DNA of 25,699 nucleotides from a virus. Positions within the stretch are counted from its first letter, which is position 1; each line of letters begins with the position of its first letter. Positions 9,032-22,401 of the stretch are shown here, in pieces. Under the pieces are notes generated by a model. It saw only the letters and a program-made list of their open reading frames with translations. It did not search any database and had not been told where the DNA came from. Where the stretch lies: the IMG/VR virus record IMGVR_UViG_3300042879_000179, positions 1 through 25,699 of that record. The stretch is one strand, 5' to 3'. Made by a program: the position numbers and the translations under genes.

Positions 9032-9444
9032 ACGTTCAGTTCCGCCACCAGCTCCACGGTGATGCTGCTGATCTCATTGCCGGCCCATTGAATCGACGGC
9101 GGGCCGGCATACTCCCACAGGCAGCCGTCAGGGGAGCGCAGCATTGAGCGCAAGCCGGGGCGCTGCGGGCTGCTGCTTTGGCCGGTAGTGGTGACGCCCG
9201 CGAACGTCTCAGGCGGCAGCTCGAAGCGATCGTCTTCATCGATGTTTTCGTAGTGCCGCACCACCTGCAGGATGTCCCGATCGCGGCGGTTAGCAAAGGT
9301 GAGGCGCAGCTGATAGCCGAACTTTTTGTTTCCGTACCGGCGCTTCACCGTCGTGCCCGCCATGGTGCGGAACACCTTTGTTGGGTAGGTGCCGAGCGTC
9401 ATCTGCCGCTCGTTCGGTTTCAGATCGGGGAAGGTCGCGGCCAT
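9028..9444 (-). CDS. Minor tail protein, lambda M-like
   Basis: This 138-residue protein starts at ATG 9444 overlapping the tape measure stop (TGATG). The sequence has FPDLKPNERQMTLGTYPTKVFRT, then KKFGYQLRLTFANRRDRDILQVVRHYENI, and ends in WEYAGPPSIQWAGNEISSITVELVAELNV. The plan of a conserved strand pair, a central domain that contacts neighbours, and a final V-L-xxEL strand resembles phage minor tail M-type proteins. These join the tube end to the tip complex. No catalytic motif or membrane segment is seen. Family similarity is weak by eye; position directly after the tape measure gives most of the support. Confidence 0.55.
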   Translation of the reverse strand: MAATFPDLKPNERQMTLGTYPTKVFRTMAGTTVKRRYGNKKFGYQLRLTFANRRDRDILQVVRHYENIDEDDRFELPPETFAGVTTTGQSSSPQRPGLRSMLRSPDGCLWEYAGPPSIQWAGNEISSITVELVAELNV

Positions 9445-12400
9445 CAGCGGATGCCCACCTTGCTACGAGTTGCTGGGCTCTGCTGCAGTCTGTCCAGCGT
9501 CATGCTCATGCCTCGCTTGGCGCCATCATTGGTGGCACGCTTGCGGGTCTCGGCCATTGCCGCTTCGAGCTGGTCACGGGAGACGTACTCCACCCCGTTG
9601 ATCGTGGTGGTCTCGAAGCTCATGCTCAGCACCGGCGAGGCGTTGCTGCCGGCAGGTGATGCACCCATCAGCTCGCGCATCCGATCGCCACGGTTGCCGT
9701 CCGGAGCCTGCAGCGCCACGGGGATCCGGCGGCCATCAGGCAGCGGCACATAGGCCTCATTCATCGAGCCTTCGCCGAATAGGGCCACCTGGGGGGTGCT
9801 GGCGACGCCACCGCGAGAGTAGGCCTTCAGCGGCAGCGGGCCGGATGGGGACATGATGCCGCCGTTGGCGAAGCCGGTAGTGGGGAAGCTGAGGGCGGGG
9901 CTGATGCCACCAGCGCCGAACGGGCCGACAGAGGAACCAGAGAACCCGCCAACTGCAGGTGCACCGATCCCAGCAAACATCCGGGCAATGCCGATGGCGA
10001 TGTACTGGGCGATCATCTTCTTTGCCGTGTCAATCAGCGCACTGGCGATGCCCTGCAGGAAGTCGGCGAACACTTCTTTGGCGGACTTGGTGCCGGCGAT
10101 CATCTCCGCCATGCCGTTGGTTGCCAGGGTGGCCGCAGCATCAGCCGCCTGGCCGATGGCGGGGTACCTTTGCAGAATCTCATCAAGCTGCGCCTTCTGC
10201 TGCTCCAGCACGTTGAACACCGTCGGCTCGGATGCTTGGCGGGCGAGGTCTTGCATCATGCGCTGGCGCTCCACCAGAATCTCGTTCAGATCCTGTTCTG
10301 CCCTGAGCCGAGCCAGTGCCAGCTGTTGCTCCTTTTCGCGCTCCAGTCCTTCGCGGATGGCGGCGGTTTCAGCCACGCCGCCGAGCCGGGCGATCTCTTC
10401 TTCAATCGCCTTCAGGCTCTTCAGTTTCTCTAGGTGCTGCTGAGTGATGTTGTCAATCTCAATTTCAAACTCCAGTTGGCGCTTTGCCTCATCGGTTGTA
10501 GCCCTTAGCAAATCCTCTTCGTTATTAAGTTGAACGGCAGTTTTGGCCCGCTCTTCGTTAAACTGTTCGAGCTGTTTTTGTGCGGCGGCTTGCTGTTCCT
10601 GGAGTTGCTGGGCGGCTTGTGCCTGATCCTGCAGCTGCGACGCGAAATCACCCAGCCCCGCGCCGGGTCCGGTGCCTTCAATCTCGGTGAACACCCTGCG
10701 AGCGTTGGCCTTGCGCTCACCCAGCGCCTTAATGCCGCTGCGCTCGTAGTCCCGATCAAACACCACCGCTGCCTCTTCCGGGGACGTGGCACGCCGCAGC
10801 GACGCCAGTGCCCGTGACTCTGGGCCCAGCAGCTCAGACACCATAAACCGCAGTTGGGTCTGCAGGTTGCCAGCCGCAGCAGCGCCGCCAGCAAAGCGCA
10901 CCAGATCGGTTTGCCGGCTGCCGGTCCATTGCGCCAGCCCGTAGCCGCCCACTCCGCGAGGCAGCCCGACGGCGCCGCCCTCGTTGATTCGGGGATTAAG
11001 ACCCGACTCTCGGATTAGGTTGCCAACCACGCCAGCGGCTTGCGCCGGGGTCAGGCTGAGCGCCTGCTGGATGGACTTGGCGATTTGAGCGCCCATGGAT
11101 TCGGTCGCCCCCTCGGTGGCGCGGGCCGCTGCGCTGCTACTTGAACCCCCTCCCCCACCACTGCCAGTCCCACCCCCTCCAGCCGGGGCAGGCACAACCG
11201 GCAGCGGCACAGCCCCAGGAGGCGGCGCGGCCGTAGGCGCAGCAGGTGCCACAGGCCGACCCGTCGCCGTGTCATAGGTGATACCGCCCACGGTGTAGGT
11301 GTTCGGCACACCAGCCGCCTGCAGCCGTTGCTGACCCGTCTGCATCGCGCTTACAGCAGCATCCCCCACGTTGATGCCCATCGTGGTGAGCATCGCCGTG
11401 AACGGATTGGAGTAGTTGATCATGTTGGAGATGGTCTGCTGCCATCTCGACTGCACAAAATCAAACGCCGCAGAGAACACGTTGCCGATTGTGGTGGAAA
11501 CGCTCTGCATGGCGCCCGCCAGCCACTGGCCGTCAACGCCGATGGCGCGCAGGGCCTCGCCAGCGCGGGCACGAATCCAGCCGAACATCGTTGCGGAGCT
11601 GTTGGCGATGTTCTGCACGCCCTTAGCCAGGAATTGGCCCATCGCCGTGGCCGCATCGGTGATGCGTTTAAACGACGCCTGAGCATCGGCAGCGATTGAT
11701 CCCCAGAAGATCCTGAACCGTTCCGGGTAGGTGTTGACGAACTCCCGGAACGGTTCAATGAACTTGTAGGCCGCCACGGTGGCCGCAATGATGCCGGCCG
11801 CAGCCAGCACCCAGGGGTTAGCCAGCACCGCCAGGTTCAGGCCTACTTGCGCCTTGGTGGCGACGCCTGCTGACACGGCGTAGGCCTCCATGGCCTTCGT
11901 TGCAGCGGTGATCCCTCCGATGGCGCTCATCGCCGTGGTCAGGCCGAGAACGGCAACACCGGCAACGGCCGCAGCGGCTCCAACCTGTTTGACCGGCTCG
12001 GGCAGTTTGCCGGTCTGCTCCAGCAGCCCGGTCGCCGCCTTAGTGAGCGCGATGGTGGTTGGCAGCAGCGATTGCCCGAACTGAATCTGCAGCTCCTGCC
12101 CCGCAATCTGCAGGTTGCGGAACTGTTGCGCCGGGCCCTTCATCGCCTCGGCCAGCTTGAGGGCGCCGTCGCGTTCAATCCGCCCTAAGGCTGTCAACAC
12201 GATGTCGCCGGTGATCTTGCCTTCCTTAGCCAGCTCGCGGATCTGGCCGATCGGCACACCCATCACCTGAGCGATGCTCTGCACCACTGCCGGGGTCTGC
12301 TCAAAGACGCTGTTCAGCTCTTCGCCGCGCAGGACGCCAGTGCCCAGCGCCTGGCTCAGCTGCAGGAACGCCGCGCTTGCCTCAGTTGAGGTGGTGCCGC

Positions 12401-13049
12401 TCAGCTTGGCCGCCGTGTTGAATCCGTTGTAGACGGTGCTGACTTCCTCCAGCGTCAGCCCGATTGGCCGCAGCCTGGCGTAGATCTGCGCGAACTCTTG
12501 GTTGGCCTGCGTCTGCGCAGTGCCGAACTTCCCAGCGGCTGCAGTGGCGGCGGCCTGCACCCTGCTGTAATCGTCGAGCCCCTGCGACAGCGACCTCAAC
12601 CGCCGCTCTGATTCCTCACTCGCCACCACGGCGCCCAGCGATCCGCCAATGGCCCTGCCAGCGCCGATGGTAGCCAGGCTGCTGGCGAGGCCTGCCGCCA
12701 ACCTGCGGCCCATCGAATCACCAGCTGCGGTGGCCGTGGTGTCGAGGCCCCGCAGCTTCCCTTCGAGTTTCTGGATCTCGGCGCCGTACCGCTGAAACTC
12801 CCGGCTGCCGATCTTGGCCTGCTCCTGCAGCCCACGGAATGCGCCGATGCTGCTGCGGATGCCGGCGATCGTGTTGTCGTTGGCGCGGGCGAACTGAAAC
12901 GTGGCCGCCCGCAAGGTGCTGATCTCGCGTGCCGTGGTCTGGCTGTTCTTGCCCAGATCCTGCAGCGACTTCTTCACCCGGTCGATATTCCCGCCGCCCT
13001 TCACCTCGGCTGAGAGCCGGATGGCGGTATCCAGGCTCATCCGGGCCAT
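9444..13049 (-). CDS. Tape measure protein with embedded tail lysozyme domain
   Basis: This 1201-residue protein sets tail length. The N-terminus is coiled-coil (about residues 20-100). The tape-measure N-terminal domain follows (about 125-330, with [15 protein letters not shown] and [20 protein letters not shown]), then strongly hydrophobic helices around 360-430. After a Pro/Gly/Ser-rich linker (about 590-645), residues about 655-770 form a phage tail lysozyme domain: [37 protein letters not shown] and [20 protein letters not shown], with Glu near 680 as candidate catalytic acid. Coiled coil follows (about 790-930). The C-terminus ([12 protein letters not shown]...[28 protein letters not shown]) matches lambda H-type proteins. 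ATG 13049 follows the G-T stop by 31 bases, with only a weak ribosome binding site. Confidence 0.93.
11146..11177 (-). other. Possible G-quadruplex in the tape measure coding strand
   Basis: The coding strand carries G tracts of 5, 3, 5 and 5 (positions 11173-11177, 11169-11171, 11152-11156 and 11146-11150) separated by 1, 12 and 1 bases. They encode the Gly/Ser linker just before the lysozyme domain. Codon choice for Gly is biased to GGG/GGT here. The 12-base loop makes the fold uncertain. Confidence 0.3.
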
Positions 13050-13075: not shown

Positions 13076-13087
13076 TCAGCCTACGGA
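13076..13087 (-). repeat. Junction motif variant (TCCGTAGGCTGA)
   Basis: Eleven of 12 bases match the consensus. The TAG inside the motif is the stop codon of the G-T product (13081-13083). It lies 26 bases upstream of the tape measure ATG and reads with transcription. Confidence 0.5.
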
Positions 13088-13880
13088 TCAGCCCGCATCA
13101 CCCCCAAGAACTCCCTCTCCACCAGCCGCAAATCCTCCAGCAGCCACAGCCGGTCAGAGCGCTTCACGCCCTCATCCTTGGCCCACAGGAAGAACACCTG
13201 ATAGTCCAGCCCCACAGGGCCATTCATCCCCATCCGCCACTGGGTCTGGAGCTTCATGAACCACCCGATCGCCTCGACGTTCTCCGCCAGCAGGCCGAAC
13301 GTCTCCGGCCGCTGCTCTACCTCAGGCACCGCCAGGCCGAACACCGCTGCAGCATCAGCCGCATCCTTGCCATCGTCGGCTGGGTCACCCTTCGCGGCAG
13401 CGGCGAGAAACCGCGCCGCGTCGATCAGTTTTTTGCGCGGAACCCTCCGGCCTTCGCGGCAGCCTTCTCAGACGGCTGACCCAGGCTTTCTAGCCAGGCC
13501 TTGAAGATCGCAGCACTGGCGCCCTGCACCCGGTAGAGATGGGCCTTGGTGGCGTCGCTGAACTCGATCGGCTCGCCATCCTCGCCCACCACCTCATCAC
13601 CCCAGCCGCAGAGCACCTCATCAGCCAGGTCCTGATAGGTGCAGGGCAGCGGGTCGCACAGCGAGGCCTCTTCATCCTTGGCGTAACCCTGCAGCGCCTC
13701 GATGCGCTTGCGCATCGCCACCAACATTTGATTGTGCTGATCCTGCAGCGCCTGCGCGTCCTGCTCATCTAGCACGCTGAAATGAGCGGTGAACTTGTAG
13801 GGTTTCTTGACTCCACCTTTGGCCGGCAGGTCAACACTCACCGGCCATTCGATGTGGTCGGGCTGAAACAGGTGGAACAT
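13081..13880 (-). CDS. Tail assembly chaperone G-T fusion made by -1 frameshift
   Basis: The predicted 266-residue product reads gene G to its last sense codon (13428), slips back one base on A AAA AAC, and continues to TAG 13081-13083. The T part starts LIDAARFLAAAAKGDPADD and contains ETFGLLAENVEAIGWFMKLQ, TQWRMGMNGPVGLDYQ and LLEDLRLVEREFLGVM, the DUF1799 pattern found in the T part of such chaperones. In lambda, gpG and gpG-T together bind the tape measure and recruit tube subunits; a fixed ratio of the two is needed. The T frame has a GTG at 13344 but no ribosome binding site there, so independent start is unlikely. Position right before the tape measure is canonical. Confidence 0.87.
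13393..13434 (-). promoter_or_regulatory. -1 programmed ribosomal frameshift signal (slippery site, spacer, stem-loop)
   Basis: The slippery heptamer A AAA AAC is in the zero frame of gene G at 13434-13428 and is followed at once by the G stop TGA (13427-13425). A 7-base spacer (13421-13427) separates it from a predicted stem: arm CGCGGCGCGG (13411-13420), loop TTTCTCG (13404-13410), and arm CCGC-T-GCCGCG (13393-13403) with one bulged T, giving 10 base pairs, almost all GC. Slip site, spacer length and stem all fit known -1 frameshift elements. The -1 frame enters the T reading frame directly. Confidence 0.9.
13425..13880 (-). CDS. Tail assembly chaperone, lambda G-like
   Basis: This 151-residue protein starts at ATG 13880, 6 bases after the tail tube stop. 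It begins with a small beta domain (FHLFQPDHIEWPVSVDLP, KKPYKFTAHFSVLDEQDAQAL) typical of tail assembly chaperones and continues into helical segments (QHNQMLVAMRKRIEALQGY, KAHLYRVQGASAAIFKAWLESL). It ends FRAKN-stop on the slippery site. The unshifted form is the abundant chaperone that coats the tape measure during tail assembly and is not kept in the virion, by analogy with lambda. Gene order V-G-GT-H supports this strongly. Confidence 0.87.
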   Translation of the reverse strand: MFHLFQPDHIEWPVSVDLPAKGGVKKPYKFTAHFSVLDEQDAQALQDQHNQMLVAMRKRIEALQGYAKDEEASLCDPLPCTYQDLADEVLCGWGDEVVGEDGEPIEFSDATKAHLYRVQGASAAIFKAWLESLGQPSEKAAAKAGGFRAKN

Positions 13881-13886
13881 GGCGAA

Positions 13887-15071
13887 TCAGAAAAAGATCA
13901 GGCGGGTTTCGTCGTTCTGCGTCTTGGGCAGCGCAGTAAACGGGATCTGCAGCATGTCGATTCCATCGGAATCGCTGAACGACAGATCGCCGCTAATCGC
14001 AGCCTTCGGGCAGAAGAAGATGGAGCTTTCCGTTGCTGCCGTACCCTGTTGCACCACGAACGGGCCATCGCTGGCGCCGCTGTTGTCAGCAGCAGCAGTG
14101 AAGTAGTTTTTGGTCGCAACCGGCGGATTTTCAATCGTCAGCGTTCCATTGGGGTTCGGGCGATCGGTGATACGGGCGCGAGGCTCGCAGTTGATCAGCG
14201 AACGGAACGAGGTAGTGAGACCCCAGTCGAAGGTGAAGCCCTCGGTGCAGGGCCCGTAGCCCTGGAACCGCAGCGCCTTGGTGTGGCGCGGGGTGACGGG
14301 CACCGGCTCGGCCTGGTTGCCGTAGGTGAAGGCCTCGGCGCTCTTTGCGGTCGGGGTGACGTACTTGCCGATGCCGGTGATCGTGAAGGTGCCGTAGCTG
14401 TTCAGCGGTGAGTTGAGCGCTGGGGAGCCGCGGAAGCCTTCGATGCGGTGCACGTTCTGATCCTTCACCGCCACCAGCGTGCAGCTAGAGCCGTTGCCAA
14501 AGGTGCTGATCGGCTGGTAGAGCGACAGCGCGGGAATCTTGTAGTTCACTGTGCCACCGGTGAACGATGCCGTGGACGCCACCACCGTCACCTCTCGGGT
14601 AGTGCCGTTGTGGGCCACGATCACGCCCTTGTCACCGGCATTGGCGCCGCTGGTGATCTCAATCGGGAAACCCACGTAGGCGTCAGTCGCTGGGTTGCTG
14701 CCGCCCAGGTTCGCCAGGGTGATAGTGTTGGCGCCGCCTGCAGTGGCCGTGCCGGAGATCTCAGCCGATGCGGCCAGATTCATGCCGGCCGCCAGCAGCA
14801 GCGGAGAGAACCGGGGTGCGGTGGCAGCAACACCGGAGCCGCCCCACTCGAATGTCACCGTGACGGCGACGTGCTCATTGGTGAGCGGCTGACGGTCAGC
14901 GCCGAGGAACCCCTTGATCAAGTCCCGTTCGACTCGGGTGCCGGTGTACGGGTTCACTTCCAGCGAGGTGATCTTCACTGCATCGGTGGCGCCGATCGCG
15001 CTGGCCAGGGTGCCGTAAGCGGTTTCCGTCTTGGCCAGCAAGAACGAATTACGGATCAGGAGAGCAGTCAT
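13887..15071 (-). CDS. Major tail tube protein, lambda V-like, with inserted module
   Basis: This 394-residue protein starts at ATG 15071, overlapping the stop of the 46-residue gene (TGATG). Residues 1-105 (LLIRNSFLLAKTETAYGT, VERDLIKGFLGADRQPLTNEHVAVTVTFEWGGSG, PRFSPLLLAAGM) and about 180-394 form the tube fold (YGTFTITGIGKYVTP, EPVPVTPRHTKALRF). Residues about 106-179 are an insertion of a small beta module common in phage proteins (AGGANTITLANL, AYVGFPIEITSGANAGDKGVIVAHNGTTREVTV). In lambda V an extra Ig-like domain decorates the tube surface; this insertion may play a similar surface role. Hexamers of this protein form the tail tube. Confidence 0.85.
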   Translation of the reverse strand: MTALLIRNSFLLAKTETAYGTLASAIGATDAVKITSLEVNPYTGTRVERDLIKGFLGADRQPLTNEHVAVTVTFEWGGSGVAATAPRFSPLLLAAGMNLAASAEISGTATAGGANTITLANLGGSNPATDAYVGFPIEITSGANAGDKGVIVAHNGTTREVTVVASTASFTGGTVNYKIPALSLYQPISTFGNGSSCTLVAVKDQNVHRIEGFRGSPALNSPLNSYGTFTITGIGKYVTPTAKSAEAFTYGNQAEPVPVTPRHTKALRFQGYGPCTEGFTFDWGLTTSFRSLINCEPRARITDRPNPNGTLTIENPPVATKNYFTAAADNSGASDGPFVVQQGTAATESSIFFCPKAAISGDLSFSDSDGIDMLQIPFTALPKTQNDETRLIFF

Positions 15072-15860: not shown

Positions 15861-15964
15861 CACTCGACCCATCCAATTCGCAGCAGCGCCACCAGCAGCA
15901 CCGCAACGGCAACGCTAACTGGGGCCATCATCACGGCGATCATTGCGACATCAGTCCAGGTCAT
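15860..15964 (-). CDS. Tiny membrane protein, one transmembrane segment (34 residues)
   Basis: It starts at ATG 15964 in an ATGA overlap with the end of the lectin-like gene and ends at TGA sharing one base with the next ATG (TGATG). Residues 6-28 (VAMIAVMMAPVSVAVAVLLVALL) form one hydrophobic helix with a Pro in the middle, flanked by WTD at the N-terminus and RIGWVE at the C-terminus. Translational coupling on both sides and the strongly hydrophobic composition make a chance frame unlikely. The function is unknown; together with its neighbour it looks like a two-component membrane unit. Confidence 0.65.
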   Translation of the reverse strand: MTWTDVAMIAVMMAPVSVAVAVLLVALLRIGWVE

Positions 15965-16731
15965 GGGATAACAGCTCCGAATGCGTTGATTAGGGTGGTC
16001 ACGCGGGCGTCAAGTAGGGCGAGGTCCAGGGCCTCGCCTATGCTGTAGAAGGCGAGGCGGGCGTTGGTGCGAGCTTGAGCAGCAGCCGTCCCAAAAACTC
16101 CTATATTTTCATTTAGGGGGGTTTGAGAAGTTATAGTATCTGCAAAGTTTGCGCCATTAACCCGTGCGGCAGTCGCGGTGATTGTAGTCCTTACCCCCCC
16201 GACAAAGCCAACGCCGTTTCCATTGTTAGAGGCAACGGCGTTGGAGTTGATTCGCTGCGAAATGCCTGTCGCAAGAAATGAAATCAATGCAGACCTTCCT
16301 GGACTATTTGACGTGGCAACAAGAAGGGAGTCGGCAGTAGCGACTGAAGTTTGAAAAACAGCCAAGTGCTTACTATTCTGCGGATCAGCATTATTATCCC
16401 TATTGCTATTCAAATACTTCGTACTCCCATTCCCCACAAGCCCCGTCTTGCGGTTGTAATCCCCCGCCACAAAATTGAAATTCGTCGGCGCAGGCCCCAC
16501 CAGCGGCACCAACGCACCAGCCAGTGTGCGGGCACCGGCCATGATGCAGGAGGCTTTGACCGCTGGCCAGATGCCATCAGCTTTGCAGCCAATCACAAAC
16601 GCATTGATCGCATCGCGCACTGCGGTTTCCAGTGCCTGGCCATCGGCGGTCTCGACGGCGGTGATGTAGGCCAATGCGTCCGGGTCGAGTGCAACTTCAA
16701 ACCTCCCCGTTCCAACCCAGATAATCGCCAT
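15961..16731 (-). CDS. Putative lectin-like/adhesin structural protein with AT-rich core
   Basis: This 256-residue protein starts at ATG 16731 (TGATG overlap). The N-terminus (AYITAVETADGQALETAVRDAINAFVIGCKADGIWPAVKASCIMAGARTLAGALVPLVG) is a helical adaptor that I recall from several phage fibre-type proteins. It is followed by PTNFNFVAGDYNRKTGLVGNGSTKYLNSNRDNN, then a beta-rich part with many Ser, Asn and Thr residues, typical of a concanavalin-type sandwich, and a final helix (ARLAFYSIGEALDLALLDARVTTLINAF). The middle third (about 16085-16440) is markedly AT-richer, about 45-50% G+C, than both ends and the neighbours, suggesting replacement by recombination. A sugar-binding or surface-adhesion role is inference. 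Confidence 0.6.
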   Translation of the reverse strand: MAIIWVGTGRFEVALDPDALAYITAVETADGQALETAVRDAINAFVIGCKADGIWPAVKASCIMAGARTLAGALVPLVGPAPTNFNFVAGDYNRKTGLVGNGSTKYLNSNRDNNADPQNSKHLAVFQTSVATADSLLVATSNSPGRSALISFLATGISQRINSNAVASNNGNGVGFVGGVRTTITATAARVNGANFADTITSQTPLNENIGVFGTAAAQARTNARLAFYSIGEALDLALLDARVTTLINAFGAVIP

Positions 16732-19489: not shown

Positions 19490-21490
19490 TCAGGTGCCCA
19501 GAGCGAACGACTGCGGACGGCGAACCGCCACGTCGAAGTCCTGATGCACGGTCAGGATCACCTGGCCGCTGGCGCTCTGGGTGTAGGGGTCAACCACCAC
19601 ATCCAGGCCGCTCCACATGCCCACCACGCAATCGGCAAAGTTGCCGAACAGAACATCGTTCAGCTGCATCTGGTTGGACACGGTGAACTGGTAGCCGTTC
19701 ACAGTGCCGGCATCGGTTATGATGTAGTCAGAGCCAGCCGAGGATGCCCTCAGGGTCTGCTTCAGGGCGCCGCGCACCACGCTGTTGCCGATGTAGCGCA
19801 TCGAGCCGGCGTCGAGGTTGTCGATCGCCAGTTCGGTTTCCAAGTCCACGTAGTCGGCCCAGTCGCCGCAGTTGTGGGTGGTGGAGCCGTCGCCGCCGAG
19901 GCTCACAGGGAATGCCTTGGCGGTGCCGCCGCCCAAGGTCACGCTGCCGATGCCGGTGGTGTTGATGATGCCCAGCGGCTGACCGTTGGAGCCGGTGCCA
20001 TAACCGATGGTGTAATCCATGCCCAAAGCGACAGACTCGGCCATGTCGATCCGTACCAGGTTCTCCACGTCAGGGGAGCTCTGGATCATCATCCGGCGGC
20101 TGATCGGCACGCGAACGCCGATGGTCCGGGGGATCATGTTCACCAGGCCGAAGGTGAGCTTGCTGTTGGCAACCCCAGCATTCTCGCCGACAAAGTAATA
20201 CTGGCTGGAGCTGAGCTTCTTGGGAATCTCAACGTTGCCCTCCAGGCCGGAGAGCATGGTGAGGCCGCTGTTCAGGAAGGCGCTGCGGTTGCGGATCAGG
20301 TCAATGAACTGCGCATCGAGCCGATCGGTGCCGACCAGTGCGCCGCCATCGCCGAAGGTGCCGACCACCTGGCCGGGGGTCTCAGCAGCGCGGCTGGAGC
20401 CCAGCACTTCCCAGGGGATCAGCACGCCGTTGGCAGAGCGGCTGTGCTTGGCCTGGGCGGCACGGGCCACCTCCAGCTCAAAGCCGGCGGCCTCAGCGGT
20501 ACGGGGGTTGGGGTCGGCCAAGTAGGCGGCGACGCGCAGGAAGCTGTAGCGCTTCACCTCACGCTTGCTCAGGCCCAGCTCAGCGCCGCCGGCATCGTGC
20601 ACGCGGCCCTCGAAGGACACCTTGCGCATGCCGATCTGTTCCATCACCACCGCACGGGCGGCATCGATGGAAGCTTCGTCATTGATGAGTTTCTCGACCA
20701 GCTCCGGGAGTTGGAACTGGTCACACATGCCGCGGATGGCTGCGACGCGTTCACGCTCGGCCTGCCGGGCGTTCTGCGCCACCTCCTCCACGTTGATCGT
20801 TTCAGTGGTCATTGGGATTGGATCGGATGATTCAGTCCGCTCGGCGGTCTGTGCTGTCAGGCTATGGAGGGCCTTGCTAACGGCAGACTTGACCAACTCG
20901 GGGTCAATCGTCACGGTCGGCTCTGCCGGCGCGGGGGGCTCCGGGGTGGGCTCAGCAGCAGGCTCAGGCTCAGCCGCCGGCTCATCCATGGCGCGGCCCA
21001 GGCCTACGGTCTGGTCGGCGGGGACGGAAACGCTGGAGACCTCCAGGGCCTTCCATCTAGTCACGTAAAAGTCGCCGCTGCGCTCTTCGATGTCGTCAAT
21101 GCTGTAGGCGAACGAGACGTTTTTCGTAATGCCGGCTTCAATATCGACGCGGCGGCGGTGCTCTTCTGTTCCGCGTTCCGTAGTGTTTGGGCTCCACCGC
21201 ACCGTGGAGTACAGACGGCGATCGTCACCCAGCCAGGCCTTTTCAACAACGCCCAAGACCTTGTTGGGGTCATGCCCCCAGAGCCATGGCGCGCCGTCGT
21301 TCAATCGCGACAGGTCCATGGCGCCTTGCTCATGCACCAGGATCTCGCGGCCGAAGAATCGCTCTACGGGCGCCTCGCTAGAAAACGAGAATGTGAGCGT
21401 TTCGTCGGTTTTCTCTTCCAGCTGCATGCCGCCGGGCAGCTCTCGCCGCTGGGGGCCGCGCAGCTTCGTGAGATCTAGGGTGGAATCCAA
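19490..21490 (-). CDS. Fused prohead protease and major capsid protein (HK97-type)
   Basis: This 666-residue polyprotein joins two functions usually encoded separately. Residues 20-165 are an HK97 gp4-type prohead protease: DGAPWLWGHD gives His73, ITKNVSFAYSI gives Ser126, and WKALEVSSVSVPAD the third-strand acid near Glu150. A Pro/Glu/Ala linker (169-195) leads to a helical, scaffold-like delta region (about 190-285, AERERVAAIRGMCDQFQLPELVEKLINDEASIDAARAVV). The HK97-fold shell follows to the end. The start is TTG 21490 with no clear ribosome binding site; an in-frame TAG lies 24 bases further upstream. ATG 21427 (Met22) is a possible alternative start. Met227 could start a separate capsid chain, but no ribosome binding site precedes it. 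Confidence 0.9.
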   Translation of the reverse strand: MDSTLDLTKLRGPQRRELPGGMQLEEKTDETLTFSFSSEAPVERFFGREILVHEQGAMDLSRLNDGAPWLWGHDPNKVLGVVEKAWLGDDRRLYSTVRWSPNTTERGTEEHRRRVDIEAGITKNVSFAYSIDDIEERSGDFYVTRWKALEVSSVSVPADQTVGLGRAMDEPAAEPEPAAEPTPEPPAPAEPTVTIDPELVKSAVSKALHSLTAQTAERTESSDPIPMTTETINVEEVAQNARQAERERVAAIRGMCDQFQLPELVEKLINDEASIDAARAVVMEQIGMRKVSFEGRVHDAGGAELGLSKREVKRYSFLRVAAYLADPNPRTAEAAGFELEVARAAQAKHSRSANGVLIPWEVLGSSRAAETPGQVVGTFGDGGALVGTDRLDAQFIDLIRNRSAFLNSGLTMLSGLEGNVEIPKKLSSSQYYFVGENAGVANSKLTFGLVNMIPRTIGVRVPISRRMMIQSSPDVENLVRIDMAESVALGMDYTIGYGTGSNGQPLGIINTTGIGSVTLGGGTAKAFPVSLGGDGSTTHNCGDWADYVDLETELAIDNLDAGSMRYIGNSVVRGALKQTLRASSAGSDYIITDAGTVNGYQFTVSNQMQLNDVLFGNFADCVVGMWSGLDVVVDPYTQSASGQVILTVHQDFDVAVRRPQSFALGT
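20857..20868 (-). repeat. Junction motif copy inside the capsid gene (TCCATAGCCTGA)
   Basis: A full 12-base match to TCCRTAGCCTGA, here within coding sequence about 45 bases upstream of Met227 of the protease-capsid fusion. That is the boundary where unfused phages would have the gap between protease and capsid genes. Confidence 0.5.
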
Positions 21491-21525: not shown

Positions 21526-22401
21526 CTACGCCGCCAGCGCCAACGGAAGTTGACCCACCACGGCGGCAGGGCAATGGCGTTTAATCTTCCGCCAGCGTTG
21601 ATCCGTGAACCACGGTTGGCGGCGGTACCAAGCCTCAACCGGCGAGGCTTTCTTGCTGGTGTTGCACGTGGAGCAGGCCGGGATGATGTTGCTCGCCTCA
21701 TCGAGTCCGCCCTTGGTCAGGGCCAGCACGTGCTCAACGGTCAGCCGTTCGTACCTGCGGTTGCGTTCATGCCCGGCATCCACTCCGCAGAATGCACAGC
21801 GGTTGCTCCACAGCGCGAAGCGGGCGTCGATTTGCTGCTGCGTGACAGGATGCAGTGCCCGTCTCCTTGCTGCGCGCTTCCACGCAGAACGGCGGCGGCT
21901 GGCTTGACGTTCTTTATCAAGGTTGACTTTGCGCCACTGGCGGCAGTATTCACGATGCTTTTCTGGGTTTACCTCTCGATACCGGCGGCAACATTCACGC
22001 ATCCTGTCGCGATTGGCTTCGTAGTAACGACGGCATCTTTCGCGGTTTTCAGTGGGGTTTTCCAGCCGTTTTTGACGCTTATATTGCCGACACTTCTCGG
22101 CGTTTCTAGCGTAGTATAACCGATCTTGCTTGCGCCGATATTCAATGTTTAATCGATAGTAGCGACGGGCGAATTGGCGACAAGCGTCCGCATTTTGCGC
22201 ATAATAGGCACGTTGAGCAACACGCTTTTTCTCGGCAACCGTCGGCAACAGGTGGGTCCTGACTCGGGTGTGAGTCCATCCGACTATCCTGCCGATCTCC
22301 CGAATGCCAACGCCACACGCGGCGGCCACTTCTGCCGTGATTTGGTCTTGAACAGTGAACGGCTTGGCCTTTTGCCGCCCAGTCTGCGATACTGATGCCA
22401 T
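21526..22401 (-). CDS. HNH endonuclease with N-terminal basic repeats (probable homing-type mobile gene)
   Basis: This 291-residue protein starts at ATG 22399-22401. An N-terminal helix-turn-helix-like part (TAEVAAACGVGIREIGRIVGWTHTRVRTHL) is followed by about seven basic 15-16-residue repeats (RYYEANRDRMRECCR, RYREVNPEKHREYCR and others, residues about 60-175), typical of DNA-binding arms. The C-terminal HNH domain (202-251) has CAFC, TVEHVLAL (His224), SNIIPACSTCN (Asn238, Cys243, Cys246, Asn247). It cuts DNA and often drives its own spread between phages. The gene interrupts the usual portal-protease order, and its repeat region (about 21900-22250) is clearly AT-richer than its neighbours, supporting recent arrival. 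A role in terminase cutting, as for some HNH proteins beside terminases, is less likely here. Confidence 0.85.
   Translation of the reverse strand: MASVSQTGRQKAKPFTVQDQITAEVAAACGVGIREIGRIVGWTHTRVRTHLLPTVAEKKRVAQRAYYAQNADACRQFARRYYRLNIEYRRKQDRLYYARNAEKCRQYKRQKRLENPTENRERCRRYYEANRDRMRECCRRYREVNPEKHREYCRQWRKVNLDKERQASRRRSAWKRAARRRALHPVTQQQIDARFALWSNRCAFCGVDAGHERNRRYERLTVEHVLALTKGGLDEASNIIPACSTCNTSKKASPVEAWYRRQPWFTDQRWRKIKRHCPAAVVGQLPLALAA

Follow-up and report, generated by a model that had tools for sequence, protein, structure and literature searches.

Programmed -1 ribosomal frameshifting of the type known from lambda G/G-T most probably (at about 94%, judged from the sequence) joins the tail assembly chaperone G to the DUF1799 frame T in the virus analyzed here (IMG/VR virus record IMGVR_UViG_3300042879_000179, positions 1 to 25,699; this whole stretch of 25,699 nucleotides is referred to as the window). 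The proposed signal lies on the minus strand and comprises an internal Shine-Dalgarno-like GGAGG (13444..13448), the slippery heptamer A AAA AAC (13428..13434), the TGA stop of G directly after it (13425..13427) and a stem-loop (13393..13420). The presence of these elements, their frame and their conservation were observed directly, and comparison of related loci demonstrated, at the level of the sequence, selection on the heptamer, the stem, the Shine-Dalgarno-like site and the stop position.

The window contains a siphovirus head-to-tail module on the minus strand, with genes for terminase, portal, a protease-capsid fusion and tail terminator, followed by the tail genes. G and T are encoded in two overlapping frames between a 394-aa ORF (15071..13887) and the tape measure gene. 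The 394-aa ORF is located where the major tail protein gene is expected, and no family match was found for it. The tape measure protein, which carries a tail lysozyme domain (9444..13049, minus strand; TMP_3, E 9e-32; Phage_lysozyme2, E 3e-29), is encoded directly downstream of T and is the presumed client of G and G-T. The genes for the portal and the protease-capsid fusion are separated by an HNH endonuclease gene (22401..21529), and the fusion is a single 666-aa ORF (21490..19493, listed start TTG) that combines an S78 prohead protease with the major capsid protein.

G (13425..13880, minus strand) is a protein of 151 aa, assigned as a putative tail assembly chaperone by its ORF, a match to PHROG 569 and its predicted fold; it would be the product of non-shifting ribosomes. 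The T frame (13081..13428, minus strand; 115 aa) overlaps G just upstream of the tape measure gene in the -1 frame relative to G, a relation found in 266 of the 269 loci examined. Its first codon is CTG at 13428..13426, the -1 frame reads KK-LIDAARF..., and the stop is found at 13083..13081. T matches DUF1799 (PF08809) with 50.8 bits, above the curated cut-off of 26 (E 2e-13), and PHROG 680 (E 3e-19), in line with the DUF1799-like reading frame named in the initial annotation. The 151-residue G and 266-residue G-T given there were recomputed with the same result, the predicted fusion being exactly 266 aa long. The structure prediction for T (pLDDT 56) was too poor for use. At one related locus (L126:1386-2312), the T frame runs without a stop into a sequence resembling the window ORF 16731..15961, which reflects either a chimeric assembly or a rearranged module.

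The reading frame of G ends with GCA AAA AAC TGA, and AAAAAAC at 13434..13428 is thus read as A AAA AAC relative to the ORF 13880..13425; coordinates, frame and adjoining TGA were as initially annotated. The motif AAAAAAC occurs twice in the window compared to 0.67 expected occurrences, so that the heptamer alone is not significant there; its in-frame location at the gene junction is, as the relatives decide. The queries used to gather related loci were T, G, a T alignment and the DUF1799 HMM on its own, and 94 distinct junctions were retained after dropping junctions more than 90% alike. A heptamer of the form XXXAAAC was present in the slip frame of the overlap in 91 of these 94, as AAAAAAC in 74 and as GGGAAAC in 17, while slip-frame heptamers were found at only 3 of 9,245 codon positions elsewhere in G and at none of 8,704 in T. 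The patterns of the first scan included KKLIDAAR, which possibly favoured AAAAAA, and the count was repeated with loci obtained by the DUF1799-core HMM only. In this set, which is blind to the junction, the heptamer was found in 28 of the 29 distinct junctions listed.

Among 39 distinct close relatives, AAAAAAC was present in 38 and G GGA AAC in one. Thus, no close relative with both frames retained was seen to have lost the heptamer, a loss that the initial annotation had named as evidence against a frameshift. The lysine codon at the slip site was AAA in 38 of 38 close relatives, whereas AAG accounts for 86% of lysine codons elsewhere. The exchange of the heptamer changes the amino acids (AKN to RGN) and preserves the slip; two slippery heptamers exchanged for each other with both frames kept indicate selection for slipping, as against selection on the protein sequence. 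As far as sequence comparison can tell, this exchange is the strongest evidence for frameshift reading.

A few loci deviate from this pattern. At one of them (L057, near 1667) the slip site has only five A's, so that G and T would no longer be linked; this is likely a sequencing (homopolymer) error, since the near relative L056 has six. A prophage DUF1799 locus (L276) is an exception: in place of an XXXYYYZ motif it has only the degenerate A AAG AAC, its T frame is broken, and it is possibly a decayed prophage. In the Webervirus phages (L248, L249 and L286), the chaperone junction is without the heptamer and has A AAA G and then TT TAA, which seems to be another slip site within the same protein family.

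The start that gene callers would choose for T is a GTG at 13342..13344 (minus strand), and T might be a separate gene beginning there or at a nearby start, with the heptamer being incidental. Similar starts are given in the records of S-CBS1, S-CBS3, Snitter, KarlBarth and other phages, the Pfam core of DUF1799 starts downstream of this GTG, and the position is occupied by GTG or ATG in 33 of 39 relatives. This reading is nevertheless highly improbable: the GTG has no Shine-Dalgarno sequence (-1.7 kcal/mol), GTA, ATA or GTC, none of them a normal start codon, stands in its place in 5 of the 39 relatives, the T frame (LIDAARF..) is open and conserved from the heptamer on, 28 codons ahead of the GTG, and 91 of 94 junctions retain the slip-frame heptamer. 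By sequence conservation there is no conserved independent start of T, and the GTG is probably unused, which agrees with the earlier view that the T frame has no start signal of its own. A separate T product with its own N-terminus, the other counter-evidence named in the initial annotation, thus finds no support as far as the sequence can tell. Slippage of RNA polymerase on the run of six A's, by which mRNA with an altered run would encode the fusion in one frame, would make use of the homopolymer at the junction. Bacterial polymerase slippage has been reported on runs of roughly nine A or T (PMC5009743); furthermore, GGGAAAC, which has no long run, is used with the same frame relation in 17 of the 91 lineages with a heptamer, and the stem and the Shine-Dalgarno-like site are stimulators of translational slippage. 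Polymerase slippage is therefore regarded as extremely improbable.

Programmed ribosomal frameshifting at the heptamer, the preferred reading, has a variant that concerns the stop codon of G. The zero-frame stop adjoins the heptamer in 74 of the 91 lineages and is found at a distance of 0 or 1 codon in 83, compared to 45.9 expected by synonymous resampling of the first T codons (maximum of 57 among 400 simulations); judged by this comparison, stop placement next to the heptamer is a product of selection. Some close relatives read CTG ATC, which yields TGA, and others CTC ATA G or CTC GTA G, in which TAG comes one codon later; ATA is rare elsewhere (9 of 228 isoleucine codons). Such a selected stop would either end G cleanly or take part in slippage, between which the sequence cannot decide. 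In the variant, the slip would mainly be delayed by one step: the stop would already occupy the A site, and the tRNAs would move from the E and P sites; the peptide would be identical, release factors would compete with slippage, and the speed of termination would set the G:G-T ratio. Apart from the selection on the stop at or next to the slip site, the variant has a parallel in the HIV-1 slip site, where a stop placed as the following codon was decoded ahead of slippage and, in bacteria, the shift disappeared when RF2 was raised (PMC4373837). The same stop lowered the frameshift yield rather than promoting it (PMC4373837). Moreover, TGA, TAG and TAA are all used over the 91 lineages (54, 19 and 18, respectively), so no single release factor is tuned, and a nearby stop may only spare G a C-terminal tail. 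A slip at this later step is accordingly considered unlikely. Since the stop is placed by selection beside the slip site in lineages whose hosts differ widely, it can further be speculated that in DUF1799-type tail modules the stop is a working part of the signal, with slippage and release of the peptide in competition as long as the stop occupies the A site. This proposal is rather doubtful; if true, release-factor activity would set the chaperone ratio, and thereby tail assembly, in these modules.

The stem-loop downstream of the stop (13393..13420, minus strand) starts 7 nt after the heptamer; its 11 bp are interrupted by a single bulged U in the 3' arm and enclose a loop of 5 nt (-21.3 kcal/mol for a 43-nt fold). 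The 10-bp stem with a 7-base loop described earlier is the same stem at the same coordinates, but that description omits the closing U-G pair, counted among the 11 bp here, and the bulge. The 7-base spacer between heptamer and stem, which includes the TGA, was confirmed, leaving 4 nt from stop to stem. Compared to dinucleotide shuffles, the signal of the window stem itself is modest (z -1.78; 11 of 200 shuffles as good), so that support for the stem comes from the relatives. With synonymous codon shuffles that used each locus's own codon usage, mean z values of -1.79 were obtained for the window's family, -1.87 for distant viral relatives and -1.20 for prophages, in contrast to -0.19, -0.03 and -0.62, respectively, for a control region 180 nt downstream. 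On this comparison, synonymous codon choice does not account for the full stability of the GC-rich stem. The stem starts at the identical position in 29 of 31 close relatives folded, with its upper part in two different forms, and GCG GCG is found in its 5' arm in 39 of 39 distinct close relatives. No significant support from covariation was obtained within the window's family, where most pairs are invariant, and an Rfam search gave no relevant match.

A third element, absent from the initial annotation, is the GGAGG located 9 nt before the heptamer (13444..13448, minus strand), a putative internal Shine-Dalgarno-like stimulator. Sites 6-17 nt upstream are in the range taken as stimulators in E. 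coli (PMC4066793). The glycine codon forming the GGAGG is GGA in 39 of 39 distinct close relatives, a kind of count that overstates the number of separate events because the relatives are not independent, while GGA makes up 6% of their glycine codons. Anti-Shine-Dalgarno pairing was stronger than in synonymous shuffles for the window's family (z -1.33; control +0.34) and for the distant viral set (z -1.02; control near zero), while no excess over synonymous shuffles was found in the distant prophages (z -0.31). The Shine-Dalgarno-like site as a family-wide feature is therefore ruled out; it is limited to the window's family and a part of the distant viral set, and its absence from many distant relatives means that it cannot be essential to the family.

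From these elements we infer slippage itself, its rate, the fusion protein and the roles of both proteins. Most ribosomes would read G through to the TGA and release the 151-aa chaperone. A minority would stall while tRNA-Lys is on AAA and tRNA-Asn on AAC, constrained on the upstream side by the pairing of GGAGG with 16S rRNA and on the downstream side by the GC-rich stem; the two tRNAs would then slip back by one base onto AAA AAA, and CTG ATC GAC... would be read next. The product of the slip would be the 266-aa G-T with the junction ...FRAKN-LIDAAR.... In E. coli, A AAA AAC causes less shifting than A AAA AAG (PMC5009743), a point against the frameshift reading that nevertheless fits a small share of fusion protein. 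The analogy with lambda suggests that G, and G-T through its G part, would bind the tape measure protein, while the T (DUF1799) part would recruit the major tail (tube) subunit, and the finished tail would retain neither G nor G-T.

A -1 frameshift in a tail-assembly gene, by which one gene gives two proteins, is well known in lambda and related phages. The lambda tail assembly chaperones gpG and gpGT were reportedly the subject of work by Xu, Hendrix and Duda in 2004. In lambda the slip site is G GGA AAG, located a few codons upstream of the G stop, and we know of no clear stimulator of it. The window shares with lambda the short chaperone and its -1 extension just before the tape measure gene as well as a XXXYYYZ heptamer, and in lambda G is made in approximately 30-fold excess (PMC5009743). 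Unlike in lambda, the heptamer of the window is A AAA AAC and abuts the stop, a stem and a Shine-Dalgarno-like site are present, and T belongs to DUF1799. For gp18/gp19 of Burkholderia phage KL1, a frameshift to a 264-aa fusion was predicted, with GGGAAAC directly before the TGA of the short protein and a possible downstream stem-loop (PMC3483164). As in the window, the heptamer of KL1 thus abuts the stop, while it is the other of the two heptamers and no Shine-Dalgarno-like element was reported (PMC3483164). A heptamer abutting the stop was also predicted for gp12/gp13 of Acinetobacter phage Loki; in contrast to the window, no stimulators were described (PMC5313236). The dnaX gene of E. coli resembles the window in its internal Shine-Dalgarno sequence, A AAA AAN heptamer and hairpin (PMC5600365, PMC5009743). 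It uses AAG, and about half of the ribosomes shift to a shorter product, whereas AAC is used and the shifted product is longer in the window (PMC5600365, PMC5009743). Among the dnaX-type features, the window has GGAGG 9 nt upstream, as in 39 of 39 close relatives, and the stem 7 nt downstream.

In phage records the DUF1799 frame is rarely joined to the chaperone. It is called as a separate gene in 10 of 11 records inspected (S-CBS1, S-CBS3, S-LBS1, Snitter, pAEv1818, RS1, KarlBarth, PMM-G3, PS-1 and KL), which bears out the earlier remark that annotation pipelines usually miss the frameshift. XXXAAAC abuts the G stop in eight of the 11, and A AAA G is found in the three Webervirus records. Only Klebsiella phage Shelby (MK931445) has, like the predicted product of the window, a DUF1799-type T annotated as a joined chaperone frameshift product; unlike in the window, the slip there seems to take place on A AAA G with TT TAA after it, and there is no heptamer. 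The separate DUF1799 genes in databases are probably truncated mis-annotations without the first residues and the chaperone half.

Hence earlier publications (KL1, PMC3483164; Loki, PMC5313236) already cover the mechanism, the position of the genes, the heptamer and the abutting stop, and DUF1799 as a frameshift half is already annotated in Shelby. As far as the literature examined shows, the slip site in most sampled DUF1799 loci, the exchange of two heptamers, the selected stop placement and the occurrence of all three dnaX-type elements in the window's family are new. The compact stop-adjacent arrangement pointed out in the initial annotation was borne out, while its publication for KL1 and Loki and the selection on the stop had been missed. 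Most DUF1799 loci sampled are downstream halves of predicted frameshift products, and the cassette is compact and conserved in three parts, so that the roles of internal Shine-Dalgarno, hairpin and adjacent stop are separable by experiment. Knowledge of tail building is unchanged by the frameshift finding.

The assignment of G was additionally examined by sequence and structure comparison. G matches PHROG 569, named 'tail length tape measure protein', with E 1.7e-8; this is probably a positional name. The predicted fold of G (pLDDT 81) resembles, as a model, the predicted 'tape measure chaperone' proteins of Serratia phage Scapp and Enterobacter phage Ec_L1 (Foldseek probability 0.99-1.00). 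A comparison with the HK97 tail assembly chaperone 2ob9 gave a weak similarity (VIA-align, Z 2.5), with unrelated rows at equal or higher Z. No significant match to a solved chaperone structure was found with the G fold by Foldseek against the PDB, and PDB sequence searches with G and with T gave no useful match. Two very different types of G (beginning with MFHLFQPD... and MFVLDQSD...) share the junction GGFRAKN and T (window 13880..13425; L006, L048, L053, L058, L065, L066 and L068), which suggests, from these sequences, recombination just upstream of the slip site.
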